This document shows, piece by piece, positions 6,524 to 48,450 of a stretch of 56,709 bases of DNA. The notes under the pieces were generated by a model, which saw only the letters and a list, made by a program, of their open reading frames with translations, searched no databases and had not been told where the DNA came from. Source of the DNA: Ruminiclostridium sp. (lineage in GTDB: Bacteria > Bacillota > Clostridia > Oscillospirales > Ruminococcaceae); contig JAFPUE010000093.1 of the NCBI GenBank assembly GCA_017395555.1, forward strand, positions 1 through 56,709. The letters run 5' to 3'. The stretch's first letter is position 1, and each line of letters begins with the position of its first letter. Made by a program: the position numbers and the translations under genes.

Positions 6524-6582
6524 GGGTTAGCGGGCGCTAACCCGTTTTGAGATATTATAGCACAACGTATTTCAAAATGCAA
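6524..6582 (-). promoter_or_regulatory. feo promoter with DtxR-type operator
   Basis: Reading the minus strand, -35 TTGCAT (6582-6577), a 17-bp spacer and -10 TATAAT (6559-6554) are followed by a 20-bp inverted repeat at 6524-6543 with perfect 9-bp arms GGGTTAGCG / CGCTAACCC. A bound repressor would cover the transcription start. The core 16-mer GTTAGCGGGCGCTAAC recurs with small changes before other operons in the window. Confidence 0.85.
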
Positions 6583-6651
6583 TAGAGATAAGAAACTTTA
6601 TTATATTTTTTGTTGATTCTGCTTTGTTTTTTAAGGAGGACATATCATTGA

Positions 6652-6667
6652 GTTAGCGGATTCTAAC
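6652..6667. promoter_or_regulatory. Imperfect copy of the operator
   Basis: GTTAGCGGATTCTAAC matches the 16-bp operator except in the right arm. It sits between the end of the 6695-7393 gene and the feo promoter, about 70 bp upstream of the feo -35 box. It may be an auxiliary site for feo. No promoter could be assigned to it. Confidence 0.4.
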
Positions 6668-6694
6668 TAAAATGCAAAACGATATCTTTGTGTC

Positions 6695-7393
6695 TCAGCG
6701 ACTGTCTTTTGCAAAGCATACCGCGATAAACATCAGCCCGATTCCGAGGGAAGCACCAAGACCCGCGAGCTGCAAGAATATCCCGTTTCCCGTTGCGCCG
6801 GTGAGTGCGCATCCGGCAAGGTGAAAGATGATGTAAGCGCCGACAGTGTTCATAACGCACGTTACCTTCGGAACCGCAATAATTCCTTCGAACACGAAAT
6901 AGATGAAAGCGACAGAAAGCATCGTCTCCGTGATCGTTACCCACACATTTGCGGCTGCAAAGGAGAGGAGAAAAGATGTGTCATAGACTGCATCTATCCG
7001 TTCGGGTGTGACACCGCATTCCAGCGCGTTCTTTACAGACATCATCAGCACTGCGCACACCGAATGTGCCGCGAAGAATGTCAGGCTTCCGGTCACTGCC
7101 GCAATATCGTAGCAAGTGAGCATTTTCGACTTATTGCCGTTAAGACGATCTTTTATGTGCGAATGCATGGCACTCAGTCCCAACCACATAAACGGGGTAG
7201 CAATCGCGCCCGTGAGCAGCACGAAGTACAGCTGCCACATCGGCTGATCGGCTATTGTCGGTTTTATCATATATAGGAATGTCTCACCGCTGTTCTCAAA
7301 GTTTTGCAGCAGCACATCGCCGACCGCAAACAGCGCAGTTCCGATAAAGCCGAGCAACAGACACAGCTTTCGGAGTTTTTCTTTTATATACAT
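6695..7393 (-). CDS. Polytopic membrane protein of unknown function (family A, copy 1)
   Basis: This 232-residue, very hydrophobic protein has six to seven likely membrane helices and a GD pair at the end of the first helix (AVGDVLL). The same layout is seen in the genes at 9704 and 13013, so the three look like one paralogous family; it resembles what databases call DUF6796, but I am not certain. The ribosome site is AAAGGA seven bases before ATG. It is last in the minus-strand run starting at 12793, about 100 bp after its neighbour. Function unknown. Confidence 0.75.
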   Translation of the reverse strand: MYIKEKLRKLCLLLGFIGTALFAVGDVLLQNFENSGETFLYMIKPTIADQPMWQLYFVLLTGAIATPFMWLGLSAMHSHIKDRLNGNKSKMLTCYDIAAVTGSLTFFAAHSVCAVLMMSVKNALECGVTPERIDAVYDTSFLLSFAAANVWVTITETMLSVAFIYFVFEGIIAVPKVTCVMNTVGAYIIFHLAGCALTGATGNGIFLQLAGLGASLGIGLMFIAVCFAKDSR

Positions 7394-7490
7394 TTTTTGT
7401 TCCTTTAAGTCCGGTTAGAGTAAGAAAAAGGTCGACCTACGATCAAATATCTTGTTATCTACCTTCATTTTTCTTCGCTATATAGTTATT

Positions 7491-8387
7491 TCACCAGATT
7501 TCAAGCTCATCAAGTATATCCCGCGTGCTTTTCTTTCTAGCCTCTTTGCAGATCTTCGGGTTTTCTCTGTCGCGCGGGCAGGCGTACCGGAGAAGGAATT
7601 TATGCGACAGCGGCATATTCTCCCACGAGCCGAGAGCGTGGCTCGCGCCGGGATATTCTATCGACTTTACGGTGTGAGGAAATCCGCTTTCTTCAAGCAC
7701 CTTTTTCATTCGCTCAACAGCAGTCTCCGACGGCCAGCTATCGTCCCAGTCCGGGTGAATGAACAGTATATCGCCGTTGATGTTTTCGACCTTAATGCGG
7801 GAATCGGGGTTTAAAACTGCTGTATCATAAGCCGCACGCATAAAATATTTAAGTCCGTACCCGGGCATTTTTCGTACCTCGCGCAAAGCACCGCGAAGCC
7901 CGTCCTTGTCTGCAAGCGGGTATGTCGAATATGGCATATCCTTACCGTGATACTCGTAAACGCTCGTTCCTGTATGGTGAACCATTTTCTTCATTGATTC
8001 CATAACATAGTCGAACGGAACGACTGCGATCACTTTTGTTATCGCGGGAATTAGCGACGCGCAGAGAAGAATATACCCTGCGCCCGTGGATGTCCCCATA
8101 ATGCATATCTCAGTATAGCCATGCTCATTCAGCCATTTTGCGGCTCGTTCAGTATAATCCACCGGAATGCGGTGTAGCTCCTTCGGAAGACCCTTCCATA
8201 GATAAAACCCGAGTATCATAACCGAATATCCTTCACGGACAAGGAACTGACCGGCACGTACACACACCTTTTCGTTGCATCCCGCGCCGCCTGTGTAGAT
8301 TATCGCCTTGCCGGGCTTTTTCGTACCCGGATAGAAATGCGCGGAGAAGCCGTCTTTTTCAACATTGAAGTCAATTCTTTCAGACAT
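7491..8387 (-). CDS. Alpha/beta hydrolase, acyl-CoA thioester hydrolase / BAAT C-terminal type
   Basis: This 298-residue protein starts at MSERIDF, with GGAGAGAGCAGTA before the ATG; a longer frame upstream has no site. The oxyanion region GGAGCNE, nucleophile elbow MGTSTGAG with serine in G-T-S-T-G, an aspartate in the IHPDWDDSWP segment and histidine in GASHALG form a normal triad. The pattern is closest to the BAAT C-terminal / dienelactone-hydrolase-like group. The gene overlaps the upstream hydrolase gene by 8 bp. The substrate is an ester or thioester that cannot be named; the neighbours suggest a small-molecule pathway. Confidence 0.8.
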   Translation of the reverse strand: MSERIDFNVEKDGFSAHFYPGTKKPGKAIIYTGGAGCNEKVCVRAGQFLVREGYSVMILGFYLWKGLPKELHRIPVDYTERAAKWLNEHGYTEICIMGTSTGAGYILLCASLIPAITKVIAVVPFDYVMESMKKMVHHTGTSVYEYHGKDMPYSTYPLADKDGLRGALREVRKMPGYGLKYFMRAAYDTAVLNPDSRIKVENINGDILFIHPDWDDSWPSETAVERMKKVLEESGFPHTVKSIEYPGASHALGSWENMPLSHKFLLRYACPRDRENPKICKEARKKSTRDILDELEIW

Positions 8388-12857: not shown

Positions 12858-12908
12858 GTAAGCGCCTGCTAACCTCATTATATTATCACATTTAATAAGA
12901 AATGTCAA
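12858..12908 (-). promoter_or_regulatory. Promoter with DtxR-type operator for the methyltransferase operon
   Basis: On the minus strand TTGACA (12908-12903), a 17-bp spacer and TAATAT (12885-12880) are followed by the operator GTTAGCAGGCGCTTAC at 12873-12858, with two deviations from the palindrome. The -35 box is only 23 bp from the -35 of the divergent promoter. Confidence 0.8.
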
Positions 12909-12931: not shown

Positions 12932-12982
12932 TTGACAGATCGAATTAAAAGTGATATAATAATTCAGTTAGCGGGCGCTAAT
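12932..12982 (+). promoter_or_regulatory. Promoter with DtxR-type operator for the 13013 gene
   Basis: A consensus promoter TTGACA (12932-12937), 17 bp, TATAAT (12955-12960) is followed by GTTAGCGGGCGCTAAT at 12967-12982, a near-perfect operator copy overlapping the expected start of transcription. Confidence 0.85.
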
Positions 12983-13834: not shown

Positions 13835-13890
13835 TTGACAACGACATTGATTTGTGATATATTGTTTTCGTTAAATTAGCGCACGCTAAC
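13835..13890 (+). promoter_or_regulatory. Promoter with DtxR-type operator for the FTR1-P19 operon
   Basis: TTGACA (13835-13840), a 17-bp spacer and TATATT (13858-13863) are followed by the operator ATTAGCGCACGCTAAC at 13875-13890. Two further sites lie downstream: a weak copy GTTACCTGTCGCTAAT at 13968-13983 and a better one at 14034-14049 inside the start of the FTR1 gene. Confidence 0.85.
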
Positions 13891-14019
13891 CGTTTAGCGC
13901 ATTTAAGTTGTTTGACGCCAACCAAGATGTCTGATTGCTTTTATACAGCGGCTTGACATTACACAAAGTTACCTGTCGCTAATTATTTGGAACATAAAAG
14001 GAGAATTCACAGAAAGAAT

Positions 14020-15687
14020 ATGTATAGCACAAGGTTAGCCTCCGCTAAGCGTTTTGCAGCTGTATTAGCTGTTTTCATAGCATTTATGGCATTTTCGGGA
14101 TTTCTGTGCATCAAAGCGGGAGCCGAGAATATAACATACATATCGACTTGGGAAGAATACAAGGCCGCGAACAATATCACTGACAGAACATGGAACACTG
14201 TGGCCGGGGCTATCGACGACTGCATCGAAGCTTCGATCAAGCTGTATAAAGCCGGTGATAAGGATGCTGCATACACTCCTGCTCTTAACATCTACAATTA
14301 CTACTATGAGACCTCCGGCTTTGAACGTTATGTGAACGGCTACTCCGGTTCGGAAGTAAGTAAGGCAGAGCTGCAGTTCAAAACCGCGCGAAAGGCTGTT
14401 AAAAAGGATCTTGGTGTTGAAACTGTAGTTGCGGAGTTTGTAAAGCTGAGTGAGATACTGCACATTCAGGCAAATCACCTTGACGGTCTCGGGGATTTCG
14501 GTGAAAGCGCTTTTGATTCAGACGGTACCCGCAAGACAACAAGCACATCGGTTACCGTTGCCCCCTCTGAGGAAACTTCTGATAATACTGAAAATACTGC
14601 GGAAACAGTCGTGACTGAACAACAGTCCTCTGTAGTAAGCGGAGCCGCAACATTCGGTGCTTGTTTTGTAATAATACTTCGCGAAGGGCTTGAAGCGATA
14701 CTTGTCGTAGGTGCGATAATCGCTTATCTCGTAAAGAGCGGCAACAGAAGCAAATTGAAACACGTTTATTTCGGATGCGTTGCTGCTATTGCAGCGAGCT
14801 TCCTCTGCGCATGGCTGTTAAGTCTGTGGAAGCTTGCAAACACCGCAAATCAGGAAGTCATCGAAGGCGTTACCGCTCTTATCGCCGTAGTTGTTCTGTT
14901 CTATGTAAGCAACTGGATGATCTCCAAAGCAGAAGCTGATACATGGAACAAATACATAGACGGTCAGATAAAAACATCTGCCGAAACAGGAAGTGTTTTC
15001 ACTCTTGCGTTCACAGCCTTCCTTGCGGTATTCCGTGAGGGCGCAGAGGTCATACTGTTCTATCAGCAGTATCTCAGCGATCCGACTGAAACAGGATATG
15101 TCTGGGGCGGTTTCGGAGCCGGCTGTGTAGTGCTCGTGGTTGTATTCATCGCTATACGCTTCTTCAGCGTAAAGCTCCCGATACGTCCGTTCTTCCTCGG
15201 AACGAGCATTCTGATGTTCATAATGTCGGTATCGTTCCTCGGCGCAGGCATAAAGGAGCTCATTGAAGGCGACGTGATAGATATGACCTCCCCCGAGTGG
15301 TTACAGGCGATAATACCTTACAACGATGTACTTCAGGTGCTCGGAATTTATCCCGTTTATGAAACTCTGATACCGCAGCTTATACTTATTCTGATAACAT
15401 TCCTCATCTTTGTGATGATGAAATGGGACAGAAACAACCGCAAGGAAGCCGGTATAGTTGCAATTGTTTTCGGCGGACTCGGAATACACAAGTTCTATAT
15501 AGGCAAATATGGTCAGGGCATTCTCTATGCTGTTTTCTGCTGGACATTCATTCCGTTTTTCCTCGGTATAGCGGACGGTATCCATTATCTCACCGAGACC
15601 GATGAACAGTTTACCGCGGAGCTTGCTCCAAAGCCGAAAAAGACAAAAGCCGCAAAGAAGACCAAACCTGCGGCTGTAAAGAATTAA
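14020..15687 (+). CDS. FTR1-family iron permease with N-terminal extracellular domain and C-terminal TM2 domain
   Basis: This 555-residue protein starts at the ATG at 14020; an in-frame TTG at 13987 is less likely. A signal peptide ends near AGAE (residue 36). An extracytoplasmic helical domain follows to about 165, then a Ser/Thr-rich linker. The FTR1 membrane core holds the two iron-binding motifs REGLE (221-225) and REGAE (339-343). A second domain at about 476-525 has the glycine-rich FGGLGIHKFYIGK pattern of TM2 proteins, then a Lys/Ala-rich tail. FTR1 permeases import iron; with P19, DUF2318 and FtsX/ATPase genes next to it this is the C. jejuni p19-type system. The TM2 fusion is unusual. 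Confidence 0.95.
   Translation: MYSTRLASAKRFAAVLAVFIAFMAFSGFLCIKAGAENITYISTWEEYKAANNITDRTWNTVAGAIDDCIEASIKLYKAGDKDAAYTPALNIYNYYYETSGFERYVNGYSGSEVSKAELQFKTARKAVKKDLGVETVVAEFVKLSEILHIQANHLDGLGDFGESAFDSDGTRKTTSTSVTVAPSEETSDNTENTAETVVTEQQSSVVSGAATFGACFVIILREGLEAILVVGAIIAYLVKSGNRSKLKHVYFGCVAAIAASFLCAWLLSLWKLANTANQEVIEGVTALIAVVVLFYVSNWMISKAEADTWNKYIDGQIKTSAETGSVFTLAFTAFLAVFREGAEVILFYQQYLSDPTETGYVWGGFGAGCVVLVVVFIAIRFFSVKLPIRPFFLGTSILMFIMSVSFLGAGIKELIEGDVIDMTSPEWLQAIIPYNDVLQVLGIYPVYETLIPQLILILITFLIFVMMKWDRNNRKEAGIVAIVFGGLGIHKFYIGKYGQGILYAVFCWTFIPFFLGIADGIHYLTETDEQFTAELAPKPKKTKAAKKTKPAAVKN
14034..14049. promoter_or_regulatory. Operator copy inside the FTR1 coding start
   Basis: GTTAGCCTCCGCTAAG lies within codons 5-10 of the FTR1 gene. 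It keeps both TTAGC and CGCTAA half-sites with the right spacing. It could act as a second repressor site or block elongation, as intragenic operators do; function unproven. Confidence 0.5.
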
Positions 15688-15763
15688 GGTTTCAATAATG
15701 CAGTTCAACTGCTTTTGGAAATAAACGGTCAATACCGCAAATCAATAAAATTTGGAGGTTTTT

Positions 15764-16456
15764 ATGAAAAACACAAGAAAAGCTGCTCTCGCAGCAGTGA
15801 TCTCCGTTGCAGCTCTTGCTCTCGCAGGCTGCGGCAACAACAATCAGCCCGCTGCTATAACAGCGGCTCAGAACACAACAACAGCAGCTCAGGCGACAAC
15901 AACAGAGGCTGCCGCAACAACTGCAAAAGCTGCGGAGGCCGAAGTCAAGACTGATCCTGCTGCGGATGCGGGCGAGGACGCAGGATTTACCGAGTATCCG
16001 ATCTTTGAGGACGAAGAAGTTGGTTTCCTTAATGTGTCGGCTGTTTACTTCCAGCCTGTTCCGATGTCCGGTGGAAATGGCAACACAGAGGATTTCAACA
16101 TTCATCTTGAAGCCGATGTTTCCGCACTTGAGAACAAGTTAGGCTTCGGTGTCGGCGACTGGGTACCGTACCTCACGGTAGACTACGAGGTAACAGGCTC
16201 TGACGGAAATGTAGCCGCATCCGGTACATTCATGGAAATGAGCGCTTCTGACGGTCCGCACTACGGAGCAAACGTAAAGCTCCCGAATGCCGATACATAC
16301 AAGCTGAAGTTCACGATCCACAGCCCCGAGGAAAACGGATACCTTCTCCATACAGATGCTGAGACAGGCCCCGGCGGCTCATTTGACGACTACTTCGGAA
16401 ACGGCAACCTGATCGTTGAACACGAGGGTTGGGAGTACATTCCGCAGGAGTGGTAA
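15764..16456 (+). CDS. P19/Tpd-type iron-binding lipoprotein
   Basis: This 230-residue protein starts at the ATG after GGAGGT. The signal sequence ends in the lipobox LAGC (Cys23), so it is anchored outside the membrane. A low-complexity Ala/Thr/Gln linker (~residues 24-70) precedes the P19 domain, which shows NVSAVYFQPVPMSGG, the HLEADVSAL strand, MEMSASDGPHYGANV and LHTDAETGPGG. These contain the Met, His and Glu residues that bind copper and iron in P19/Tp34 proteins. It is thought to deliver iron to FTR1; the gene is 76 bp downstream. Confidence 0.93.
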   Translation: MKNTRKAALAAVISVAALALAGCGNNNQPAAITAAQNTTTAAQATTTEAAATTAKAAEAEVKTDPAADAGEDAGFTEYPIFEDEEVGFLNVSAVYFQPVPMSGGNGNTEDFNIHLEADVSALENKLGFGVGDWVPYLTVDYEVTGSDGNVAASGTFMEMSASDGPHYGANVKLPNADTYKLKFTIHSPEENGYLLHTDAETGPGGSFDDYFGNGNLIVEHEGWEYIPQEW

Positions 16457-16469
16457 TACCGGTTTAAGC

Positions 16470-16606
16470 AAAGAATAACGGCTGCGAGGCAGGAGCCCGA
16501 CGGTTTATCGGATTAACATACGGATCCGGGGGCGCCGTTGCGCTATTCTTTTCTTCATTACGATCGCGCTATGCTGAAAAATCGCATAGCGCTTTCGCGC
16601 GTTTTT
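16470..16606 (+). promoter_or_regulatory. Intercistronic hairpins, possible attenuator
   Basis: The 187-bp gap after the P19 gene holds an outer pair (AAAGAATA...TATTCTTT with ACGGC/GCCGT inside) and then a perfect 9-bp hairpin GCGCTATGC/GCATAGCGC at 16566-16592 followed by TTTCGCGCGTTTTT. The second looks like a weak terminator, which could raise the amount of FTR1 and P19 relative to the downstream genes. Confidence 0.5.
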
Positions 16607-16643
16607 ACAGGCTTAAAAAATCATACTTTTGGGAGGGTCCTCC

Positions 16644-17900
16644 TTGCTTAAATACATAATTTCGACAATTGAGTTGCTTATTACGGCGGCTGTAAATATA
16701 GCGCTGATTCTGGCGTACATAAAAATCTCATACACAAGCAAAGCGAAAATTGCTGTTTATATAGGACTCGGAGCCGGAGCTGTCAGCGCGGGAGTCATGG
16801 GCTGCCTCAAAAACTTCACAAAGCTGGTAGATACGATGCTGTGCAATTTCTTTATCTTCGGCATATCACTCGCTATGCTCGTTATTTTCTTTGTTTTCGC
16901 GGCACTTCGGAAAAAGCTCCCACGGGTCGGCGCGGCGGTATCGCTTTGTGCGCTGACGACGGTTCTTGTTGGAATAATGCTTTATGCGCTCCCTGACTAT
17001 TTCGGATATCCGATAACAATCTGGCTTAACGAAAACTCAGTTTTCTCGACTAATGTTCTGTTCAAGAACATCGGAGCGATAATTGGTTTCCTGTTGATAC
17101 TTCTTACATGTGCTGCAATAAACCGTGGCGCAGTAAGACTTCCGAAAGCGGCAGTGTTTGTCATTATGACTCTCGTACTTGTCACAAATGCGGCAAGGCA
17201 GATAACGGTCATAATAAACGTACTTATATCAAAGCGCTGGATAAAGTCAAATTCGTTTCTGTTCGGCATCGTAAAATTCTCGACAAACCATTCCGATGTA
17301 TTCATATATGTTTCAATGGTCATTACGCTGCTGATCCCTATCATTCTGCTGATCCGCAGCGCAAGGTCAAACGAGCCGTATGACAATCCCGCGCAGAAAC
17401 GTAAGATAAAGAAAAAACGAATTCTGATACGGCGCTGGTCGGCGACAGTAGTATCGTGTCTCGCTGTATCTGTGCTGAGTATGACAGTCGTAAAAGCTTA
17501 TGTCAACAAACCGGTGGAGCTTTCTCCTGTCGAAAAAGCTCCTGAGATCGATGGAAATATCTGCGTATCTTTTGAAATGGTTGATGACGGGCATCTTCAT
17601 CGCTTTGCCTATTATACCGAAAGTGGGAAGGAAATACGTTTCATAGTCATTAAGAAGCCGAATTCATCATCTTACGGCGTAGGGCTTGATGCGTGCGATA
17701 TTTGCGGCGAAACAGGCTACTACGAAAAAGACGGTCAGGTAGTATGCAAACTGTGTGATGTCGTAATGAACATCAACACTATCGGATTCAAGGGCGGCTG
17801 TAACCCGATAGTCATTGATTACAGAATAGAGAACGGACAGATACTTGTTCCTATAGCGGGACTTCTCGAACACGAGAGTGAGTTCAAAGGAAGGATGTGA
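16644..17900 (+). CDS. DUF2318 membrane protein (Fe-S-containing-like)
   Basis: About 418 residues. The start chosen is the TTG at 16644, seven bases after GGGAGGG; an earlier TTG at 16629 is possible. Eight or so membrane helices fill residues 1-245, and the C-terminal ~125 residues form the DUF2318 domain, with HLHRFAYY, the motif CDICGETGYYEKDGQVVCKLC (CxxC twice) and GGCNPI. This family accompanies FTR1/P19 in Campylobacter, Bifidobacterium and others, where it is proposed to move electrons or metal across the membrane for ferric iron handling. The cysteine pairs are intact. Confidence 0.88.
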   Translation: MLKYIISTIELLITAAVNIALILAYIKISYTSKAKIAVYIGLGAGAVSAGVMGCLKNFTKLVDTMLCNFFIFGISLAMLVIFFVFAALRKKLPRVGAAVSLCALTTVLVGIMLYALPDYFGYPITIWLNENSVFSTNVLFKNIGAIIGFLLILLTCAAINRGAVRLPKAAVFVIMTLVLVTNAARQITVIINVLISKRWIKSNSFLFGIVKFSTNHSDVFIYVSMVITLLIPIILLIRSARSNEPYDNPAQKRKIKKKRILIRRWSATVVSCLAVSVLSMTVVKAYVNKPVELSPVEKAPEIDGNICVSFEMVDDGHLHRFAYYTESGKEIRFIVIKKPNSSSYGVGLDACDICGETGYYEKDGQVVCKLCDVVMNINTIGFKGGCNPIVIDYRIENGQILVPIAGLLEHESEFKGRM

Positions 17901-17906
17901 CGAGCC

Positions 17907-19196
17907 GTGTTTTTCAGAATGATTTTCGGAACGCTGATAAGACAGTGGAAAAAGATGCTGATGATAGCGTTCACAATAGCGCTCGGTGCGTCACTTGCGA
18001 CCGCGATGCTTTCAGTGATGCTCGATGTCGGTGACAAAGTCAATCAGGAATTAAAGACATACGGAGCAAACATAACCGTTGTACCGAAGGAAAATTCAGT
18101 GCTGAATTCACTGTATGAGGTCGAGGACGGAGGAAGCACAGGCGCATATCTGCGGGAGGACGAACTCGGCAAAATAAAAACTATTTTCTGGGCATTCAAC
18201 ATCGTCGATTATGCGCCGTTCGTAAACACAAAGGCAAAGCTCGACGACGGAACGGAAATTACTGCCGTAGGAACATGGTTCAATCATCACATGGAACTTC
18301 CTACGGGTGAACAGCTTGACGCAGGCATTACCAGTCTGCGAAGCTGGTGGGAAGTCACTGACGGAAAATGGATCGATGAGCAGAGCATTGAAAACAGAAA
18401 TGTAGCAATGGTCGGCTCCGCTCTTGCCGAAAAGCTCGGAGTCAGGATGTGCGATGAGATACATCTTACCGGAAGCGTCTCGGATCTGACTGTGAAGGTC
18501 GCCGGTATCATTGATGCGGGCGGCGACGAGGATAACAAGATCTTTATGCCGCTTGACACGGCTCAAACTCTTAGCGGACTTGACGGAAAAGTTGACAGTG
18601 TTGAAGTCAGTGCTCTTACAACTCCTGACAATGAGCTCGCGGTCAAAGCCGCTAAGGATCCGAAATCGCTCACGATAGCGCAGTATGAACTATGGTACTG
18701 CACAGCATACGCAAGTTCGATATGCTATCAGATACAGGAAGTAATGACTGATGCTGTAGCCTCTCCTGTTCGTCAGGTAGCTGATTCCGAAGGCGCTATA
18801 CTCGAAAAGACGCAGCTTCTTATGGTGTTGATAACGATACTCAGTCTGATCGGTGCGGCACTCGGTATCTGCAATCTCGTTACCGCCAGCGTAATGGAGC
18901 GCAGCGCGGAAATGGGACTTATGAAAGCGATAGGAGCTCAGAACTCGTCAGTGTCGGGGCTTGTGCTCACTGAGATAATAATTACCGCCGTATTCGGCGG
19001 TATCGCGGGATTTTTTGCGGGTTACGGCTTCGCACAGATCATCGGTCATACGGTATTCGGCTCCGCTATCAATATGCGGCCAGCAGTAATCCCGATAGTG
19101 GCTGTTCTTGTACTTATTGTAACACTTGCAGGCTGTATCCCCGCAATAAGAATGTTGTTAAGACTCAGTCCGTGCGAAGTTCTTCACGGAAAGTAA
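17907..19196 (+). CDS. FtsX-like ABC permease (iron import cluster)
   Basis: This 429-residue protein begins with GTG. It has a first membrane helix (WKKMLMIAFTIALG), a large extracytoplasmic MacB-type domain of about 230 residues, and three C-terminal helices ending in IRMLLRLSPCEVLHGK, the FtsX/MacB arrangement. It pairs with the next permease and ATPase. In P19 clusters these ABC genes are required for full iron uptake, though they look like a mechanotransmission or export type and their exact role is unclear. Confidence 0.9.
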   Translation: MFFRMIFGTLIRQWKKMLMIAFTIALGASLATAMLSVMLDVGDKVNQELKTYGANITVVPKENSVLNSLYEVEDGGSTGAYLREDELGKIKTIFWAFNIVDYAPFVNTKAKLDDGTEITAVGTWFNHHMELPTGEQLDAGITSLRSWWEVTDGKWIDEQSIENRNVAMVGSALAEKLGVRMCDEIHLTGSVSDLTVKVAGIIDAGGDEDNKIFMPLDTAQTLSGLDGKVDSVEVSALTTPDNELAVKAAKDPKSLTIAQYELWYCTAYASSICYQIQEVMTDAVASPVRQVADSEGAILEKTQLLMVLITILSLIGAALGICNLVTASVMERSAEMGLMKAIGAQNSSVSGLVLTEIIITAVFGGIAGFFAGYGFAQIIGHTVFGSAINMRPAVIPIVAVLVLIVTLAGCIPAIRMLLRLSPCEVLHGK

Positions 19197-19208
19197 GGGG
19201 GAGCGACC

Positions 19209-20357
19209 ATGAACAAAAGAAAAATGTTTTTCCGCATGATAACCGCTTCCCTGCTTCGACGACGTTCGAGAATGATAGTTGCTCTTTTGTCGATCGCAAT
19301 AGGTGCGACTATACTTTCAGGACTTGTGACGATCTACTATGATGTTCCGAGACAAATGGGCGCACAGTTCAGAAACTACGGAGCAAATATGATATTTACG
19401 CCGACAGACGGCAGTTTCACAAGTGCGGATATATCACAGGGAAAGAATTGTATTGATCAGAAGGATATTATCGGTGTCACCCCGTACAGATATGAATCAC
19501 TGCGTATGCGTGAGCAGCCGGTAATGGCGGCGGGAACCGATATGGCTGAGGCTAAACTCACAAGTCCGTACTGGTCGGTTGAAGGAGAATACCCGTCAGC
19601 GGAAGGTCAGATACTTCTCGGAGCAACACTTTCAGAACAGTTCCGGCTGGGCACGGGCGACAAGGTAGAGATCGGATTCACTCCTTCCGCAGACGACAAT
19701 GACGAAACGGTCGTTGACAGCACAAAGGAATTCACGGTGTCCGGTATTCTTGAAACGGGCGGTCCCGAAGAGGATTATGTTTATATGATATTGTCGGATC
19801 TGGAAGAGCTGACGGGCGTTTCCGGAAAGATAGACCTCGCTGAGCTGAGCATATCGGCAAAATCTGACAAGCTGAAGACCTATGCGGATAAGATAAACTC
19901 GAGCGTACCAACAATAAGAGCGAGCCTTGTGAAACGTGTTACCGAATCCGAGACCACTGTGCTTACGAAATTACAGGCGCTTGTGCTGCTCGTGACAGTA
20001 GTTGTTCTTGCACTTACAATGATATGCGTGGCAACTACAATGACTGCGGTTGTTGCGGAACGTCGGCGCGAGATCGGACTTCGCAAAGCGATAGGCGCAT
20101 CAAACAGCAGTATTATAAAGGAATTCATGGGCGAAGGAATGCTGCTCGGCGCGGTAGGCGGTATAATAGGATCTGTGCTCGGTTACATATTTGCTCAGCA
20201 GGTAAGCATAAATGTGTTCAGCAGTTCGATCTCGTTCATGCCGTTGCTGGTTCCGATAACTATACTTGTATCCGTGGCTGTTACGGGAATTTCCTGCTTG
20301 CTGCCGATAAGAAGCGCCGCAAGCATTGAGCCTGCGCTTGTACTGAAAGGAGAATAA
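19209..20357 (+). CDS. FtsX-like ABC permease (iron import cluster)
   Basis: This 382-residue protein has the same topology as its upstream neighbour: N-terminal helix with RSRMIVALLSIAIGATI, an extracytoplasmic domain, three C-terminal helices with RRREIGLRKAIGAS before the second (typical of MacB/FtsX). The two permeases probably form a heterodimer served by the ATPase at 20361. The ribosome site GGGGAG is well placed. Confidence 0.9.
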   Translation: MNKRKMFFRMITASLLRRRSRMIVALLSIAIGATILSGLVTIYYDVPRQMGAQFRNYGANMIFTPTDGSFTSADISQGKNCIDQKDIIGVTPYRYESLRMREQPVMAAGTDMAEAKLTSPYWSVEGEYPSAEGQILLGATLSEQFRLGTGDKVEIGFTPSADDNDETVVDSTKEFTVSGILETGGPEEDYVYMILSDLEELTGVSGKIDLAELSISAKSDKLKTYADKINSSVPTIRASLVKRVTESETTVLTKLQALVLLVTVVVLALTMICVATTMTAVVAERRREIGLRKAIGASNSSIIKEFMGEGMLLGAVGGIIGSVLGYIFAQQVSINVFSSSISFMPLLVPITILVSVAVTGISCLLPIRSAASIEPALVLKGE

Positions 20358-20360
20358 GCA

Positions 20361-34380: not shown

Positions 34381-34396
34381 AAAATGACCTCCTGTT

Positions 34397-34966: not shown

Positions 34967-35002
34967 TATTTCACCACCAATATAGTTTGCGACCACTAAC
35001 TG

Positions 35003-35066
35003 TTGTAAACAAGTTAGCGCGCGCTAACTTGTTTACAAGTATAGCATAGATTCTAAGATTTGTCAA
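35003..35066 (-). promoter_or_regulatory. Promoter with 36-bp perfect palindromic operator
   Basis: On the minus strand TTGACA (35066-35061), 17 bp, TATACT (35043-35038) lead into a 36-bp perfect palindrome at 35003-35038. Its central 16 bp are GTTAGCGCGCGCTAAC, the best match in the window to the shared operator, and the outer arms read TTGTAAACAA. It controls DUF3793-flavodoxin-DUF2325. Confidence 0.88.
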
Positions 35067-35508: not shown

Positions 35509-35642
35509 TTTTCCCTCCACATATCATGTTTAATTGATTCCGTTCTCTTGCAGATGCTGCCGCGCTTAATCATTTCTTTTTCCAACTCGACAAACGGCTG
35601 TACATCGACGCGTGACCCTATTGCAAGTACTGAAATTATCAT
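35505..35642 (-). pseudogene. N-terminal remnant of a GT1-type glycosyltransferase, translationally coupled to the repressor
   Basis: A 45-codon frame with its own GGAGAAG site encodes MIISVLAIGSRVDVQPFVEL then EKEMIKRGS, which looks like the first strand and loop of MGT/GT1 glycosyltransferases (IGSRGDVQPFVAL type). After about 29 residues similarity stops and an unrelated tail runs into the repressor start (ATGA overlap). It looks like a gene whose body was deleted, leaving promoter, operator and start. It may now serve as a leader that couples translation to the repressor. Confidence 0.6.
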
Positions 35643-35655: not shown

Positions 35656-35700
35656 GTTAGGCCGCGCTAACAGTATAACATATTTGTAAATAAAATGCAA
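35656..35700 (-). promoter_or_regulatory. Promoter with operator for the repressor gene
   Basis: On the minus strand TTGCAT (35700-35695), 17 bp, TATACT (35677-35672) are followed by GTTAGCGCGGCCTAAC at 35671-35656, an operator copy with one altered half-site. It implies autoregulation of the DtxR-type gene, and being about 110 bp from the AraC start it may affect that gene too. Confidence 0.82.
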
Positions 35701-41991: not shown

Positions 41992-43746
41992 TTACTTTAT
42001 CCTCCAGCATCCCGCGTGCTCCTGTTCATTCCACAGAGCCGCGTACATACCTTTGTTTTTCAGAAGTTCCTCGTGTGTGCCGCATTCCGCGATCCTACCG
42101 CTATCGAGGACTGCTATCCTGTCGACGTTGCAGACAGACTGCAAACGGTGTGCGATCACTATAACTGTCTTATCCTTGACAAGCGCGGAGATCGCCTGCT
42201 GAATGAATACCTCATTCTCGGGATCGAGTGATGAGGTCGCTTCGTCAAGCAGGACCACAGGCGCGTCTTTGAGAAGTGCGCGTGCGATCGAGATGCGCTG
42301 TTTCTCGCCGCCCGACAGCGTAGAGCCGCCTTCTCCGACCATAGTGTCATAGCCATTTGGGAGAGCCGTTATAAAATCGTGGCATGCAGCTTTCTTCGCG
42401 GCTTCGACTATTTCGTCATGTGTCGCGTCGGGCTTTCCCATGCGGATATTCTCCTCGATTGTATCGTGAAACAGGTAAACGTCCTGAAAAACAACGCTTA
42501 TCTTTGATACAAGCTCCTCCGTGGGTACATCCTTTATCGGTATTCCGCCAATTCGTATCTCTCCGCCGGACGCGTCCCAGAATCTTGCGATAAGCCGGGT
42601 GATCGTGGATTTTCCCGAACCCGACGGTCCCACAAGCGCGGTAACACTTTTCGACGGGAACGAAAGGTCGATGCCGTGAAGCACCTCTGTGCTGCCGTAA
42701 CCGAAGCTGACATTCCTGAATTCGATATCCTCGCTTGCGGGGAGCTTCGGGTCTGTAGTTTCCGGGAGAGGCTTCTCCTCAAAAAGTTTTCTTATCCGGT
42801 CGCCGCAGCGCTTTGATCTTGCAAAATCCGCGATAAATGTGAACAGTATCAGAAACGGATCATATACCGTAAGCGACAGCAGCAGGAATGCTATGTAGTA
42901 AAACGGCGACAGTTCCCCGCCAGTGAGAAGAAGCGCGCCGACGAGCATCACTATGCCAATGCCGCAGTTGAGGATGAACCGTCCGATCATGCTTATCGGC
43001 GCGGCGGCGTGAGTTTCAAGTGCGATCGCCGAATGTCGCTGTTCGTTCAGCGATCTTTTAAGCGTTTCAAAATGCTCGCCTGCCATTCCGAAAGCTTTTA
43101 GCGTCTGTATGCCGCCGACATATTCAAGTATGCCCGAAGCCGCTTCCTGCTGCGATGTCTGTAAGTTCTCGCTCTCATGCCGCATATGTTTCATAGAAAT
43201 GAACGCAAAGGGTATCGAAAGCGGTATTACCGAGAACACCGCAAGCATCATTCTCACATCAAAAGCCGACAGGAATATTATCGCAAGCAGGAATCTTGTA
43301 AGTATCGTTGCTACCTGCGGGAGAAGCTGCTGTGTGAAGTTTTCGATCTCGGAGTAATCACGAAGCAGCACCGTTGACAGGTCTCCCGCATCGCGCTCGC
43401 TGTAGAAGCCCATACTCAGCTTGTGGAGATGCTCGCCCATTTCGATACGGGAAGTCTTTGTGGTTCCGATAAAGCCGATACAGAAATCGAGGTAGGATTT
43501 TTTACGGACGAAGAAGTATGCGATAAACTGTGCCAGAAGCACACCGGTAAGTATCCATATCCTGTCGGTCGGGAGAGGCGTTCCGGGGCTTGCCACCGGT
43601 ATCAGCAGAACATAAGCGGCAAGCAGCATTACCGCATAAGGTATCGAGACGACAAAGCTGTCAAACATACACCACGCAAACAGCTTCAGGTATTTCTTCG
43701 TCTGTCCGAGCGTCATCGTCCGGAACCATTCTTTAAAGCTGTTCAT
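41992..43746 (-). CDS. ABC half-transporter (permease + ATPase), second pair, distal member
   Basis: This 584-residue protein starts at MNSFKEWF with GGAAAGGAG upstream; its ATG overlaps the stop of the proximal member. It has an exporter-fold membrane domain, then Walker [10 protein letters not shown], signature LSGGEKQR, Walker B VVLLDEAT and IAHR. Directly followed by the ECF S, T and A genes, so ABC pair and ECF importer form one operon, an arrangement known from YbtPQ-like siderophore loci such as the streptococcal equibactin locus. Confidence 0.92.
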   Translation of the reverse strand: MNSFKEWFRTMTLGQTKKYLKLFAWCMFDSFVVSIPYAVMLLAAYVLLIPVASPGTPLPTDRIWILTGVLLAQFIAYFFVRKKSYLDFCIGFIGTTKTSRIEMGEHLHKLSMGFYSERDAGDLSTVLLRDYSEIENFTQQLLPQVATILTRFLLAIIFLSAFDVRMMLAVFSVIPLSIPFAFISMKHMRHESENLQTSQQEAASGILEYVGGIQTLKAFGMAGEHFETLKRSLNEQRHSAIALETHAAAPISMIGRFILNCGIGIVMLVGALLLTGGELSPFYYIAFLLLSLTVYDPFLILFTFIADFARSKRCGDRIRKLFEEKPLPETTDPKLPASEDIEFRNVSFGYGSTEVLHGIDLSFPSKSVTALVGPSGSGKSTITRLIARFWDASGGEIRIGGIPIKDVPTEELVSKISVVFQDVYLFHDTIEENIRMGKPDATHDEIVEAAKKAACHDFITALPNGYDTMVGEGGSTLSGGEKQRISIARALLKDAPVVLLDEATSSLDPENEVFIQQAISALVKDKTVIVIAHRLQSVCNVDRIAVLDSGRIAECGTHEELLKNKGMYAALWNEQEHAGCWRIK

Positions 43747-45545
43747 GCCGTTCTCTCCTTTCCGTCGGATTTGACGGTCCACCTGTCGCGCCGTTCGTTT
43801 GCAGCTACCATATCCGCATATTCCGGACAGCTTTCAAGCAGCTCGGAATGTGTGCCGTTTCCGATAAGCCTGCCGTTTTTCATAACGAGTATGCGGTCAG
43901 CTTTTTCGACAGTCTTAAGTCTGTGTGCGATTATCAGAACGGTCTTGTCCTTTGCGAGCCGTGCGAAAGCTTCCTGTATCTTCGCTTCGTTCTCCGCGTC
44001 GGCATACGCCGTTGCCTCATCGAGCACAACTATAGGCGTGTTACGCAGGAAAACTCTCGCTATCGCAAGACGCTGTTTCTCGCCGCCCGACAGGAACGCG
44101 TCTTTTTCTCCAATAACGGTTTTATAACCGTTCGGGAGGTTCATTATAACATCGTCGATACCCGCGTTTCTTGCGGCCTCACGCACCTGCTCGAAGGACG
44201 CTTCGATGTTGCCCATTCTGATGTTGTTTTCGGCGGTGTCGTGAAAAACGAAGCTGTCCTGGAACACATAAGAAACGAGATGTGTGAGCTCGTTATACGG
44301 TATGTTGCGAATGTCAGTCCCGCCTATCCGCACCGTCCCGCTGCCGGTTTCGCAGAAACGCAGAAGCAGCTGCACAAGCGTTGATTTACCGCCGCCGGAA
44401 GGGCCGACTATGCCGGTGATGCTGCCCTGCGGGAGCCTGCACGAAACATCGTTTACAGCAAGTATCCCGTCGCCGTATGAGAACGAAACATTCTCGTATT
44501 CTACATCATACTTTGTCGGGACAGCTCCGCTGCCTTCGTTTATCTCTTCGGCACAGAGTATGTTGTCCATGCGGTTCACGCCCTCGATTATCCTGTTCGA
44601 GGTAATGACCATCTGCATCATTGTTTCAAGCGGTTCTTTAAGCCCGCCGCCTACAAGCAGAAACAGAAATACCACCGGAAGAAAGTCGGGATAACTTTCC
44701 GCATTCATAAGCAGCAGAACGCTTGACGGAAGCAGGAACAGCAGCTGCGCTCCGAAGAACGCGTAATATGCAGCCATTGGGTTCGCGTTGGCTTTCGCGG
44801 TCTTTGTGACTGCGCCGACGAAGCCGTCAAGGTCGTTTTCGTAACGCCGGAATGCGCTTAAATTCCGGTTGAATATCTTGATGACGGGCATGCCGTGTAT
44901 GTACTCAACGATCGTGCCCTGCATCTTCTCCTGTGCGTCGTGCATTTGAGTCTGTAAAGCCGCTTTGTCGGGCTTGTTCAGACACATTCCGAGCAGCATC
45001 AGTGAAATGATTATTGGGACAAAAGCGGCAAGTGCGAGCCGCCAGTCCATAAAGAACAGGTAAATGAGCGTGAAAACGGGAGTTGCCACAGCCGCGGAAA
45101 TATCACAGATATGGTGAGCTATGAATATCTCGATCTGTTCGGTGTCGTCCGACAGTATCTTTTTCAGACCGCCCTGCGTCGATGATGTGAAGAATCCGGA
45201 CGGCAGTTTTGCCAGCTTTTCCATTAGTTTTATGCGAAGCTCATAGATTATGTCATAGGCGGCTGTGTGCGCAAGCGCCGACGAGAAATACGCGCAGATA
45301 CCGTATATCAGCGCAGCCCCGAACGTTATCCCCACAAGAAGCCATATCCTGCCTGCGTCTATGTTCTCCGGCGAGTTGTAGGACGAAAACAGCAGCACGA
45401 TCACGCCGTATATCGTAAAGAACGGCACGAGTCTTGCCGCAGACGACATGACCGAAAGCGCACAAGCTGCGGTGAGCTTTCCTTTCCGCTCTCCTGCAAG
45501 CTCCATAAGTCTTGCGAATCCTGTCTTTTTCTTCTGTTCTTTCAT
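43743..45545 (-). CDS. ABC half-transporter (permease + ATPase), second pair, proximal member
   Basis: This 600-residue protein starts at MKEQKKK after AAGGAGAG. Membrane domain of six helices, then Walker A GPSGGGKST, signature LSGGEKQR, Walker B IVVLDEAT and IAHR. It is the first gene of the operon that runs through the ECF genes. An operator copy (45558-45573) lies just before its ribosome site, and a TetR gene is divergent. Confidence 0.92.
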   Translation of the reverse strand: MKEQKKKTGFARLMELAGERKGKLTAACALSVMSSAARLVPFFTIYGVIVLLFSSYNSPENIDAGRIWLLVGITFGAALIYGICAYFSSALAHTAAYDIIYELRIKLMEKLAKLPSGFFTSSTQGGLKKILSDDTEQIEIFIAHHICDISAAVATPVFTLIYLFFMDWRLALAAFVPIIISLMLLGMCLNKPDKAALQTQMHDAQEKMQGTIVEYIHGMPVIKIFNRNLSAFRRYENDLDGFVGAVTKTAKANANPMAAYYAFFGAQLLFLLPSSVLLLMNAESYPDFLPVVFLFLLVGGGLKEPLETMMQMVITSNRIIEGVNRMDNILCAEEINEGSGAVPTKYDVEYENVSFSYGDGILAVNDVSCRLPQGSITGIVGPSGGGKSTLVQLLLRFCETGSGTVRIGGTDIRNIPYNELTHLVSYVFQDSFVFHDTAENNIRMGNIEASFEQVREAARNAGIDDVIMNLPNGYKTVIGEKDAFLSGGEKQRLAIARVFLRNTPIVVLDEATAYADAENEAKIQEAFARLAKDKTVLIIAHRLKTVEKADRILVMKNGRLIGNGTHSELLESCPEYADMVAANERRDRWTVKSDGKERTA

Positions 45546-45557
45546 ATACTCTCCTTG

Positions 45558-45573
45558 GTAAGCATTCGCTAAC
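45558..45573 (-). promoter_or_regulatory. DtxR-type operator in the leader of the second ABC operon
   Basis: On the minus strand GTTAGCGAATGCTTAC, two deviations from the consensus, 12 bp before the ABC ATG and overlapping no promoter. The nearest good promoter is about 110 bp upstream (45716-45688), so a bound repressor would act as a roadblock, or a weaker unseen promoter is used. Confidence 0.6.
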
Positions 45574-45592
45574 CGCGCAGCAAAAAAATTAA

Positions 45593-45758
45593 ATGTCACA
45601 CTTTCGAAATTTCTTTCTGACGCTGCATCGTGCAGCGTTTTGGGGAAATTTCTAAGGGCATCGTGCCCTTGTGCATTTACGAAATATATGATATACTATA
45701 ACTCGAAGTTTGTCAACCGTTTCACGAAAAGTGCTACAAAACAACAAAAGTGTGACAT
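45593..45758. promoter_or_regulatory. Hairpin leader and inverted 12-mers between the ABC operon and the TetR gene
   Basis: A promoter for the minus strand, TTGACA (45716-45711), 17 bp, TATCAT (45693-45688), leads into a leader with hairpins AAGGGCA/TGCCCTT, ACGCTGCA/TGCAGCGT and flanking GAAATTTC copies. The 12-mer ATGTCACACTTT at 45593-45604 is repeated in inverted form (AAAGTGTGACAT) at 45747-45758, just before the TetR start, and may be the TetR operator. Confidence 0.5.
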
Positions 45759-46338: not shown

Positions 46339-46995
46339 TCAGATCGTCTTTCCTGTATAGTTTTTCGCTGTCTCGCTCTTGTCAGGAACATACCGGTAAT
46401 CGCAGGAATCCGCGCCGGTAGCGACCGTGTGAGTTCTTATAAGCCTTGTGTGCATCAGCTTAGCGTATGCGTGGTCAAGCCCGCACATATGCGGCATAAG
46501 CTCCATATATCCGTATTTCTTAGCATATTCAACGAGCGGGCAGCCCACAAGTGTAAAGCTGAACGACTCGCTGTCATTGTTCGGATCAACGATCATACCC
46601 CATGTCTCGCGCCATTCTCCGTGAGCCTGTTTTTCTTTTACAAGAGCGGCGTATTCGCGGTACTTCCTGTACAGCTTCTTTTTGAAGAAAGAAAATAACC
46701 GTTTGTGATTAGCGTTCAGGAACACGCCGAGAAATTTATGGTGCCGGTAAAGATCGTCGATTATCTCATCGATCGCGTCGCCGTTCATCCTGCGGTCGGA
46801 AGCCTCATAATACGCTATGAAAAGAATGAACATATCAATATTGTCCGCAAGGATGTTCTCTTTGCCGCCTATATCCGGAGCCTTTGCCGCGAGTCCGGGC
46901 CGAAGCTCCTTCATACGCTTTATTATCGCTTTCCATTCATTCGGGAAGTGCTTTTTTAAGTAGCGGATGATCGCCTTGTTTACTGTCTTTTCCAT
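46339..46995 (-). CDS. L-2-amino-thiazoline-4-carboxylate hydrolase-like protein, second copy
   Basis: This 218-residue protein starts at MEKTVNKAIIR (GGAG upstream). It shares with the 30537 protein the helical N-terminal half, the WGMIVDPNNDSESFSFTLVGCPL strand region corresponding to the KCGICTL segment, and the HMCGLDHAYAKLM helix. It is the last gene of the operon after a ZIP transporter and converges on TetR with 5 bp between stops. The cysteines in GCPL and HMCGLD align with the family. Function as ATC hydrolase is unproven. Confidence 0.72.
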   Translation of the reverse strand: MEKTVNKAIIRYLKKHFPNEWKAIIKRMKELRPGLAAKAPDIGGKENILADNIDMFILFIAYYEASDRRMNGDAIDEIIDDLYRHHKFLGVFLNANHKRLFSFFKKKLYRKYREYAALVKEKQAHGEWRETWGMIVDPNNDSESFSFTLVGCPLVEYAKKYGYMELMPHMCGLDHAYAKLMHTRLIRTHTVATGADSCDYRYVPDKSETAKNYTGKTI

Positions 46996-47008
46996 ATCTG
47001 TGACTCCT

Positions 47009-47788
47009 TCACCCCAGCGCCACGTCAAGTATCATCATTGCAGCAAATCCCGCCGCGAACGATACTGTGCCGATGTTGGAATGCTCACCCGCGGACATCT
47101 CGGGGATAAGCTCCTCGACCACGACATAGATCATAGCACCCGCCGCGAAGCTCAGCAGATACGGCATTGCGGGGATTATGAATCCTGCCGCCGCAATAGT
47201 CACAAGCGCGGCTATCGGCTCGACAGCGCCGGAGATAACACCCGCTATAAACGCCTTGGGCTTGCTCATTCCCTCGGCCTTGAGGGGCATGGAGATTATC
47301 GCGCCCTCGGGGAAATTCTGTATCGCGATACCGAGCGCGAGAGCGAGAGCTCCCGACGCGGACATCCCGCCGCCGTAGAGAAATCCCGCGTACACCACTC
47401 CTACCGCCATTCCCTCGGGAATGTTGTGAAGCGTCACCGCGAGCAGCATCATGATGTTTTTCGGTAGTTTAGACTTTAGCCCCTCGGCCTTGTCGCTGTT
47501 CATGTGCAGGTGAGGTATCAGCTTATCGAGCAGAAGCAGAAACGCGATACCGAGCAGAAATCCTATCGTTGCCGGCAGAAATGCAAGCCTGCCCATATCG
47601 GTCTCGCTCTGTTCTATCGCAGGGATTAGAAGGCTCCACACGCTCGCCGCGGTCATAACGCCCGCAGCAAAGCCTGTGAGTATGCGCTGTACCGATACTC
47701 CGAGCTGTTTTTTCATAAGGAACACGCACGCAGCGCCAAGCGATGTTCCGAGGAAAGGGATAAGTACGCCCTGTAATATCTCGTTCAT
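47009..47788 (-). CDS. ZIP-family divalent metal transporter
   Basis: This 259-residue protein has eight helices and both ZIP metal-site motifs: HNIPEGMAVG in helix 4 and QNFPEGAIIS in helix 5, followed by SGAVEPIAAL. It is of the ZupT/GufA type, importing Zn, Fe or Mn. It is second in an operon behind an iron-type operator and 13 bp before the ATC-hydrolase-like gene, so iron or manganese uptake under starvation is a reasonable guess. Confidence 0.93.
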   Translation of the reverse strand: MNEILQGVLIPFLGTSLGAACVFLMKKQLGVSVQRILTGFAAGVMTAASVWSLLIPAIEQSETDMGRLAFLPATIGFLLGIAFLLLLDKLIPHLHMNSDKAEGLKSKLPKNIMMLLAVTLHNIPEGMAVGVVYAGFLYGGGMSASGALALALGIAIQNFPEGAIISMPLKAEGMSKPKAFIAGVISGAVEPIAALVTIAAAGFIIPAMPYLLSFAAGAMIYVVVEELIPEMSAGEHSNIGTVSFAAGFAAMMILDVALG

Positions 47789-47807
47789 AAATACTCATCT
47801 CCGTTCT

Positions 47808-48305
47808 TTACGTTACGAACAACCCGCATAAAAGCGCGAGTCCCGCCGATAACGCGATAAATACGATTATGTGAATAAGGTGTGTTTTCCAGTTGTAGCC
47901 GAACAGGTGCGGACCGACTATACCCTTAACTTCCGGGTAATAGTGCGGGAAGAATCCCGAATGACAAAGCAGGAACAGGTCGAAAAACAGGATGTCGTAT
48001 AGCTTCAGACCGAGCAGCATTATCAGAAAACGTATGAAGAACCGCAAGAAATCATATCTGCTCGCAATGCCCTCGATACAGCCAATAACTACCGGCGCGA
48101 TCATCAGAATGAACGCGCAGCCGACAAGGAAAAATCCGAGCACGTGTGCGTGCGGGAAACGTTCGGGGCGCGGCTGAACGGCATCCTGTATCTCTTTCGG
48201 TGCCGATGTGAAATATCGTTTGTCCTGTATCAGCGCGATCCCTGACCACAGCAGCAGGAAAAGCCCCGCCATCATAATTACCGCAAGAATTATTGTTATC
48301 AGCAT
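47808..48305 (-). CDS. Four-helix membrane protein of unknown function (family B, copy 2)
   Basis: This 165-residue protein is a homolog of the 9193 protein, with four helices, a charged loop after helix 1 (PKEIQDAVQPRPERF), the YDILFFD helix, FFPHYYPEVKG and LFGYN. It is the first gene behind the operator at 48329 and precedes a ZIP transporter. Function unknown. Confidence 0.75.
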   Translation of the reverse strand: MLITIILAVIMMAGLFLLLWSGIALIQDKRYFTSAPKEIQDAVQPRPERFPHAHVLGFFLVGCAFILMIAPVVIGCIEGIASRYDFLRFFIRFLIMLLGLKLYDILFFDLFLLCHSGFFPHYYPEVKGIVGPHLFGYNWKTHLIHIIVFIALSAGLALLCGLFVT

Positions 48306-48328
48306 TTCTTCACCTTCTATTTAATACA

Positions 48329-48376
48329 GTTATCCTCTGCTAACTGTATTATAGCACAGTGCGCCCTGCAAGTCAA
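48329..48376 (-). promoter_or_regulatory. Promoter with operator for the ZIP operon
   Basis: On the minus strand TTGACT (48376-48371), 17 bp, TATAAT (48353-48348) are followed by GTTAGCAGAGGATAAC at 48344-48329, an imperfect operator inside a wider ATACAGTTA/TAACTGTAT pair. Confidence 0.78.
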
Positions 48377-48399
48377 GTGTTTTTCTTTGAAGAAAGGTC

Positions 48400-48450
48400 T
48401 TGACATTTGAAATGAAACGTGATATTATAAAACAGTTAGCGCTAGCTTAC
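48400..48450 (+). promoter_or_regulatory. Promoter with operator for the third ABC pair
   Basis: TTGACA (48400-48405), 17 bp, TATTAT (48423-48428), then GTTAGCGCTAGCTTAC at 48435-48450, an operator copy with a changed right half. It is divergent from the ZIP promoter, with 23 bp between the -35 boxes. Confidence 0.82.

Follow-up and report, generated by a model that had tools for sequence, protein, structure and literature searches.

The window considered here is a 56,709-nucleotide stretch from Ruminiclostridium sp., which makes up all of contig C85 in the draft genome (2.61 Mb, 137 contigs, 86.7% complete) of an uncultured gut bacterium. It harbors genes for FeoB, a fetMP-type uptake cluster, a DUF3793-flavodoxin operon, a ZIP transporter, two ABC-exporter pairs and a divergent regulator of the DtxR/MntR type, named hereafter the 35143 protein from its coordinates (Table 1). 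A 16-bp inverted repeat, whose fuller consensus is GTTAGC-N4-GCTAAC, recurs among these genes. We consider it quite probable that this repeat is the operator of a short DtxR/MntR-type repressor, that the principal repressor is a second copy encoded on contig C104 and not the 35143 protein, and that the metal sensed is Fe2+. In the following, C, G and L numbers designate contigs, genomes and loci, respectively.

The window was scanned with the pattern GTTAGCGNNCGCTAAC, allowing up to three mismatches, and 16 matches were retrieved versus 2.99 expected from 100 shuffles (standard deviation 1.74; shuffle maximum 8), which excludes a chance origin. All 11 inverted repeats that a previous sequence-only reading of this DNA had listed were recovered at their coordinates, together with five additional matches (13968, 34985, 29750, 48793, and 48982), the last three of which are intragenic. 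In a motif-free count of inverted hexamers separated by 4 bp, GTTAGC ranked first with 12 occurrences, the runners-up having three. The 35013 operator is embedded in a perfect 36-bp palindrome (35003-35038, TTGTAAACAAGTTAGCGC/GCGCTAACTTGTTTACAA) in the leader of the DUF3793-flavodoxin operon, which might form a leader hairpin too. The pairing of this site with a weaker one is not peculiar to the window: paired sites ahead of DUF3793 are also harbored by the relatives G039 (25 bp apart) and G024 (27 bp apart).

Table 1. Candidate operators and gene groups of the window; gap, number of bp between the -10 hexamer and the operator.
Feature	Position	Strand	Promoter or remark
Operator GTTAGCGGGCGCTAAC, 0 mismatches	6526..6541	-	TTGCAT-17-TATAAT, gap 12; -10 6554-6559, -35 6577-6582
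Weak site, 2 mismatches	6652..6667	.	no adjoining promoter (p 0.30), no clear target gene
Operator ahead of two methyltransferase genes	12858..12873	-	TTGACA-17-TAATAT, gap 6; -10 12880-12885
Operator ahead of DUF6796 gene	12967..12982	+	TTGACA-17-TATAAT, gap 6; -10 12955-12960
Operator of the FTR1-P19 operon	13875..13890	+	TTGACA-17-TATATT, gap 11; -10 13858-13863
Weaker second site of the FTR1 leader, 3 mismatches	13968..13983	+	
Intragenic operator candidate, FTR1 signal-peptide codons	14034..14049	+	
Weaker second operator, DUF3793-flavodoxin leader	34985..35000	-	28 bp from the 35013 site
Operator GTTAGCGCGCGCTAAC ahead of DUF3793-flavodoxin	35013..35028	-	TTGACA-17-TATACT, gap 9; -10 35038-35043
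Operator ahead of the window's own DtxR-like gene	35656..35671	-	TTGCAT-17-TATACT, gap 0; -10 35672-35677
Operator closely preceding the probable start of an ABC-exporter pair	45558..45573	-	no adjoining -10 (p 0.14)
Operator ahead of 47808 gene, ZIP, ATC-hydrolase	48329..48344	-	TTGACT-17-TATAAT, gap 3; -10 48348-48353
Operator ahead of ABC-exporter pair 48587-52071	48435..48450	+	TTGACA-17-TATTAT, gap 6; -10 48423-48428
FeoB and HMA-domain protein (weak FeoB-associated likeness)	3911..6518	-	
Two methyltransferase genes	11475-12793	-	
DUF6796 gene (open reading frame)	12902-13738	+	start downstream of the 12967 site likely
fetMP-type cluster and following genes	13987..32613	+	
DUF3793 and flavodoxin operon	33973..34996	-	
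Divergent DtxR/MntR-type regulator, 125 aa (35143 protein)	35143..35520	-	
ABC exporter pair	41992..45599	-	
Uncharacterised 165-aa protein (47808 gene), ZIP transporter, ATC-hydrolase-like protein	46339..48305	-	
ABC exporter pair	48587..52071	+	

The analysis of the flanking sequences, carried out with a simple ad hoc sigma-70 score of our own, revealed that eight sites (those with a promoter in Table 1) lie 0-12 bp downstream of a -10 box, and that all eight promoter-like sequences combine a 17-bp spacer with a TGn extended -10. The placement directly behind the -10 box, described previously for seven sites, thus holds, and the number rises to eight. Each of the eight has p <= 0.0082 versus random window positions, and 0.9-3.2% of intergenic controls score equally high. 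The promoter of the 6526 operator reads into the genes for the HMA-domain protein and FeoB. According to the same score, no directly adjoining -10 box is present at 6652, 13968, 14034, 34985, 45558, and 48793. Beyond the window, 57 out of 106 distinct exact sites lie directly behind a strong -10 box (score >= 9.3) versus 47 out of 2102 controls shifted by 40-200 bp; the loci counted, from L046 onward and including C130 of the own genome, were partly selected by the motif and never by the promoter.

The distribution of the repeat was then evaluated in an order-level sample of 119 genomes (the own one and 118 relatives), where 148 exact sites were found in 69 genomes, and the reversed-motif control gave seven sites in six genomes. 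In a class-wide sample, 81 out of 291 genomes harbor an exact site and 13 a control match. Pfam domains were assigned to 58 of the 60 open reading frames adjoining exact sites in 30 loci (L063 had none; L050:343-1356, a shorter form of an included frame, and L065:1-1215 were left out): 17 correspond to FeoA, eight to FeoB_N, five to DtxR-type regulators, two each to ZIP, ABC exporters, and DUF2325, and one to DUF3793, the remainder having other domains or none. In the relatives, the operators adjoin feoA, feoB, ZIP, FTR1, DUF3793, and regulator genes, so that the repeat stands ahead of iron genes in several lineages. These data support the view, already put forward in the sequence-only reading, that the sites define a coherent regulon for iron, many of whose members are uncharacterised, and that a repressor of the DtxR/MntR family is tied to it. 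In the 96 sites compared across the order, position 7 is even and positions 8-10 merely lean towards A/T; the inner G..C at positions 7 and 10, part of the form given in the sequence-only reading, is local to the strongest sites of the window.

An independent test of the association is provided by 80 loci picked by regulator similarity alone (the top 80 among 577 or more), from uncultured Ruminococcaceae, Oscillospiraceae, and other Clostridia. With up to one mismatch, 46 sites fall in the 500 bp preceding the regulator gene, in 22 of the 80 loci, corresponding to a density of 1.146 per kb versus 0.0265 per kb elsewhere. The reversed motif and CTTAGG-N4-CCTAAG had no matches anywhere in these loci, and at the same threshold GATTG-N6-CAATC had one match upstream and 23 elsewhere versus 52 and 25 for GTTAG-N6-CTAAC. 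The spacing is also fixed: in 149 loci chosen by their regulator (1.03 Mb in total, roughly 2% of it present twice), GTTAGC and GCTAAC are separated by 4 bp in 44 cases, all distinct, and never by 0-3 or 5-12 bp, while the shorter TTAGC and GCTAA gave 65 cases with a spacer of 4 bp and one each with spacers of 1 and 2 bp.

The regulators themselves were compared by aligning 71 distinct proteins, obtained from 74 of 96 matches (the 22 left out were all among the 25 weakest), against the B. subtilis MntR sequence, which was used as a ruler, with the ligand columns 8, 11, 77, 99, 102, and 103. In these columns the ruler reads D-E-H-E-E-H, and 66 of the 71 regulators, called canonical hereafter, read x-E-H-C-E-H, where x is M in 24 proteins, N in 24, D in 15, T in two, and Y in one. 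Cys99 is thus present in all 66 canonical proteins and Met8 in 24 of them. According to PMC10317159 and PMC4805248, a Cys at the 99 place and a Met at position 8 separate the iron-selective DtxR/IdeR proteins from MntR; since the canonical set shares this Cys, and the Met in about a third of the cases, Fe2+ sensing is probable. The own genome harbors one canonical copy (C104:28333-28698, 126 aa, ligands MEHCEH), which is most likely its principal repressor. A canonical regulator was detected in 92 of the 119 genomes, and exact sites occur in 65 of these 92 versus four of the 27 without it (Fisher p 2.7e-7; seven of the 27 were assigned by elimination). In seven loci (L085, L087, L088, and L090-L093), feoB and the canonical regulator gene lie close to each other, and sites are placed between the two or next to them.

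In the own genome, GTTAGCN4GCTAAC with up to one mismatch occurs 18 times, and 12 of these sites lie on the 56.7-kb contig of the window, one of them (48793) being intragenic and unremarkable. With up to two mismatches the genome-wide search became uninformative, because 48 matches barely exceed the 35 of the control. The six sites on other contigs include a pair on C34, in a cluster ahead of feoA-feoA-feoB (a second feoAB); a C130 site lying behind a -10 box and ahead of an ABC-transporter gene; another C130 site at 8848; one on C16 (L006, C16:8564) that is intergenic but unproven; and an intragenic one on C64. The matches L007, L009, L010, and L011, also outside the window, were set aside as chance occurrences on account of their intragenic position. 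A single-protein query (P0001) against genome contigs gave 48 stretches, none of which was confirmed. On C34 (L095, 460-922 and 3896-4399), two small FeoA-like open reading frames precede feoB, and next come a Fur-family gene, which may be Zur, and a frame that by eye resembles a ZnuA-type lipoprotein.

The 35143 protein belongs to the DtxR/MntR family (Fe_dep_repress 46.4 bits, cut-off 26), its Fe_dep_repr_C score of 23.4 bits being under the cut-off of 27. Against PRK11050, the MntR equivalog, it reached 75.4 bits, under the curated cut-off of 153. Its ligand columns read T-K-C-H-E-C, so that only E102 of the canonical set is kept and five out of six differ from MntR; the T at position 8 recurs in two canonical proteins. 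The nearest relatives in the 118 other genomes share at most 41% identity with it. Together with four other regulators (five of the 71), it forms a group, named K11, that shares K at position 11 and lacks H77; a single branch separates the five proteins from the rest (support 95/46, 97% of bootstraps), a result to be taken with caution given the long branches. Their genes are linked to similar clusters: in G102 the regulator gene is placed directly before FTR1-P19, in G011 after fet-type ABC genes, in G034 behind a gene for a P-type ATPase, with GTTAGTCGCGTCTAAC upstream, and in G032 the link is to ABC genes. Ahead of the regulator-FTR1-P19 cluster of G102 (L082, 10299 and 10481), two AT-centred variants, GTTAGATTAAACTAAC and GTTAGTTTAATCTAAC, are mutual reverse complements. 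On sequence grounds, the 35143 protein appears as a paralogue linked to the island, with a rebuilt metal site and an operator ahead of its own gene.

P19 was found in 15 of the 119 genomes, and a K11 regulator was detected in only four of them. Among the remaining 11, the DNA upstream of FTR1 is readable in ten (that of G063 is cut by the contig end), and nine of these ten island-bearing relatives harbor between one and three sites in the 600 bp upstream of FTR1. Overall, sites occur within this distance in 11 out of 13 FTR1 promoters, the other two being those of G102, where they stand before the regulator-FTR1 cluster, and of G059, which has an intragenic site only. The conservation of promoter sites in relatives with no detected K11 regulator suggests that the operators are independent of a 35143-type protein. 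The iron regulon is therefore supported, and its assignment to the 35143 protein, which the sequence-only reading had placed in charge, is not, nine of the ten relatives keeping their sites and a regulator with intact ligands being encoded on C104.

Different roles may be depicted for the two paralogues. It is possible, though we lean against it, that both bind the same operators, the canonical regulator acting as the iron switch and the 35143 protein competing with it or adding a signal through its Cys/His-rich site. The recognition helices of the two are of one kind, the residue at IdeR position 43 varies too among regulators with a site in their own promoter, and the 35143 gene itself stands behind an operator, but its long branch (3.46) may equally signal decay. 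A stricter form, in which two paralogous metalloregulators share the operators and compete, the order-wide one reading iron and the 35143 protein another signal, is put forward only tentatively and would be rather unlikely. According to it, the changes of C99 to H and of H103 to C, the gain of C77, and the loss of two N-terminal ligands would allow the 35143 protein to respond to another metal, to the redox state, or to a metal-free state; if so, competition at shared sites would make the fetMP-type island answer to two signals. Either the 35143 protein competes in response to another signal, or it is a paralogue in decay. That it is the main metal-dependent repressor of the window operators seems unlikely. 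Its gene does lie inside the island, flanked by the operators 35013 and 35656, and its K11 relatives in G102, G011, and G034 are tied to such clusters as well, but its ligand set, the operators retained by the nine relatives and the order-wide association of the sites with the canonical regulator all argue against this role.

Some observations weigh against the assignment of the sites to the canonical regulator. A site with up to one mismatch is present within 600 bp upstream of 15 of the 71 regulator genes, the window's included, that is, of only 14 of the other 70, and the C104 gene has none within this distance. Moreover, 27 of the 92 regulator-bearing genomes have no exact site (only exact sites were tallied), four genomes (G003, G056, G068, and G088) carry sites with no detected regulator, the two-mismatch count in the own genome is close to its control, and the 600 bp ahead of FTR1 in G059 contain no site. 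Gene absences may also reflect draft incompleteness, the ten island relatives being 72-98% complete. Lastly, the presence of Fur-family genes correlates with the sites as well, more weakly (58/89 versus 11/30 genomes, p 0.0097; ten of the 30 were assigned by elimination), and the comparison of regulator-only with Fur-only genomes is borderline (9/17 versus 2/14, p 0.057).

This correlation, together with the occurrence of Fur-family genes in 89 of the 119 genomes, including two weak ones in the own genome, might suggest a repressor of the Fur family as the protein acting at the sites. We regard this as very unlikely, since the E. coli Fur box GATAATGATNATCATTATC, as given in PMC545781, is unlike the operator, and since G048, G063, and G024 (drafts 72-87% complete) harbor six, five, and three exact sites, respectively, with a canonical regulator and no detected Fur-family gene. 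That the palindromes are RNA hairpins or terminators is hardly credible in spite of the perfect 36-bp palindrome 35003-35038, as conservation concerns the sequence and not mere pairing, the spacer length is constant at 4 bp, and about one in two exact sites adjoins a -10 box.

If the canonical regulator is the principal repressor, the following scenario can be proposed. Repressors of about 120-130 aa, of the DtxR/MntR type and spread through most of the clostridial order, would bind the metal through M, N, or D at the B. subtilis MntR position 8 and through E11, H77, C99, E102, and H103. When iron is ample, the Fe2+-loaded dimer would sit on a site 0-12 bp past the -10 box (about +1 to +20), where it would block RNA polymerase and prevent initiation; when iron is short, it would leave the site, so that FTR1-P19, FeoB, DUF3793-flavodoxin, ZIP, the ABC exporters, and several uncharacterised genes would be made. 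Tandem sites about 25-35 bp apart, observed on some promoters, suggest that several dimers may occupy each of these.

The DtxR/MntR family and the fetMP-type uptake system (PMC10783030) are already known. With the DtxR/IdeR proteins of Actinobacteria, the canonical regulators share the fold family, the iron genes as targets and a metal site in which Cys99 (plus Met8 in 24 of 66) matches the Met10, Cys102, Glu105, and His106 given in PMC10317159 and PMC4805248. They differ in host, a clostridium, and in size, both the C104 and 35143 proteins being too short for the SH3-like third domain. The operator also differs, consisting of two half-sites and a 4-bp spacer and not of TTAGGTTAGSCTAACCTAA. 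The 19-bp IdeR box had no matches with up to three mismatches in the 80 loci; with up to five, 48 matches were found, 35 of them on or beside GTTAG sites, which indicates that the partial likeness to DtxR/IdeR boxes described previously is real, although weak overall.

With MntR of E. coli and B. subtilis the regulators share the two-domain size (the best PDB match is 2h09, E. coli MntR, and the best NCBIfam match is PRK11050), but the canonical ones carry Cys in place of Glu99, and the targets here include feoAB, FTR1-P19, and flavodoxin. In geometry, with its two half-sites and 4-bp spacer, the operator is closer to the E. coli MntR box. PgMntR and T. denticola TroR are DtxR-family proteins that respond to both iron and manganese; for PgMntR a mixed Asp/Cys/Glu/His primary site is discussed (PMC4805248), but these proteins carry FeoA or SH3-like domains (PMC4805248 and PMC2628430).

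Among the literature matches listed, which comprise few subscription papers, no title or opening of an abstract describes the operator, two-domain regulators having iron-type ligands, or an iron regulon under a DtxR-type protein in this group of Clostridia. Low-GC (guanine-cytosine) Gram-positives are said, in PMC10317159, to use Fur for iron and DtxR types for manganese; our data suggest that here a DtxR-type protein with iron-type ligands holds the iron role that this review gives to Fur. GTTAGC-N4-GCTAAC would be a ready operator with which to interpret iron regulons in many Clostridia of the gut and rumen that have not been cultured, and the DUF6796, DUF3793, ATC-hydrolase-like, methyltransferase, and ABC-exporter genes would be placed under likely iron control.

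As to the gene content of the 13987..32613 cluster, its uptake part includes FTR1, P19, an FtrD-like protein, FtsX/MacB permeases, and ABC ATPases, FTR1 and P19 thus sharing one cluster with FtsX-type ABC genes as in the fetMP-fetABCDEF/FTR1-P19 systems. It differs from them in that the FTR1 of the window is fused to TM2 and in that FMN-binding, fumarate-reductase-like, P-type ATPase, and DUF4418/DUF6110 genes trail in the same direction, the cluster embedding ATC-hydrolase and methyltransferase genes as well.

The intragenic 14034 site occupies the same place in the FTR1 of seven relatives (Leu-Ala-x-Ala-Lys). In all eight genomes the Leu codon is TTA, a codon that makes up 2.9% of the Leu codons (24 of 815) in 18 genes of the window, and the Ala preceding Lys is encoded by GCT, which accounts for 21% of Ala codons; the wobble base of the first Ala, inside the spacer, takes all four bases. 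This is the pattern that would be expected of an operator kept inside codons, for which the site is a candidate, bearing in mind that the eight genomes are related and thus not independent. In G024, G043, G048, G058, and G061, both the site and the peptide are missing.

Regarding other members of the island, three DUF6796 genes are present in the window (6695-7393, 9704-10387, and 12902-13738), and two orthologues also occur in the island of G059. Two ATC-hydrolase-like genes (30537-31175 and 46339-47028) also lie in this iron island. Lastly, G084 (L084-L086), with a genome of 2.8 Mb, harbors 13 exact sites, of which four or more lie on its contig C7 and some near ABC-exporter genes, and represents an enlarged regulon.

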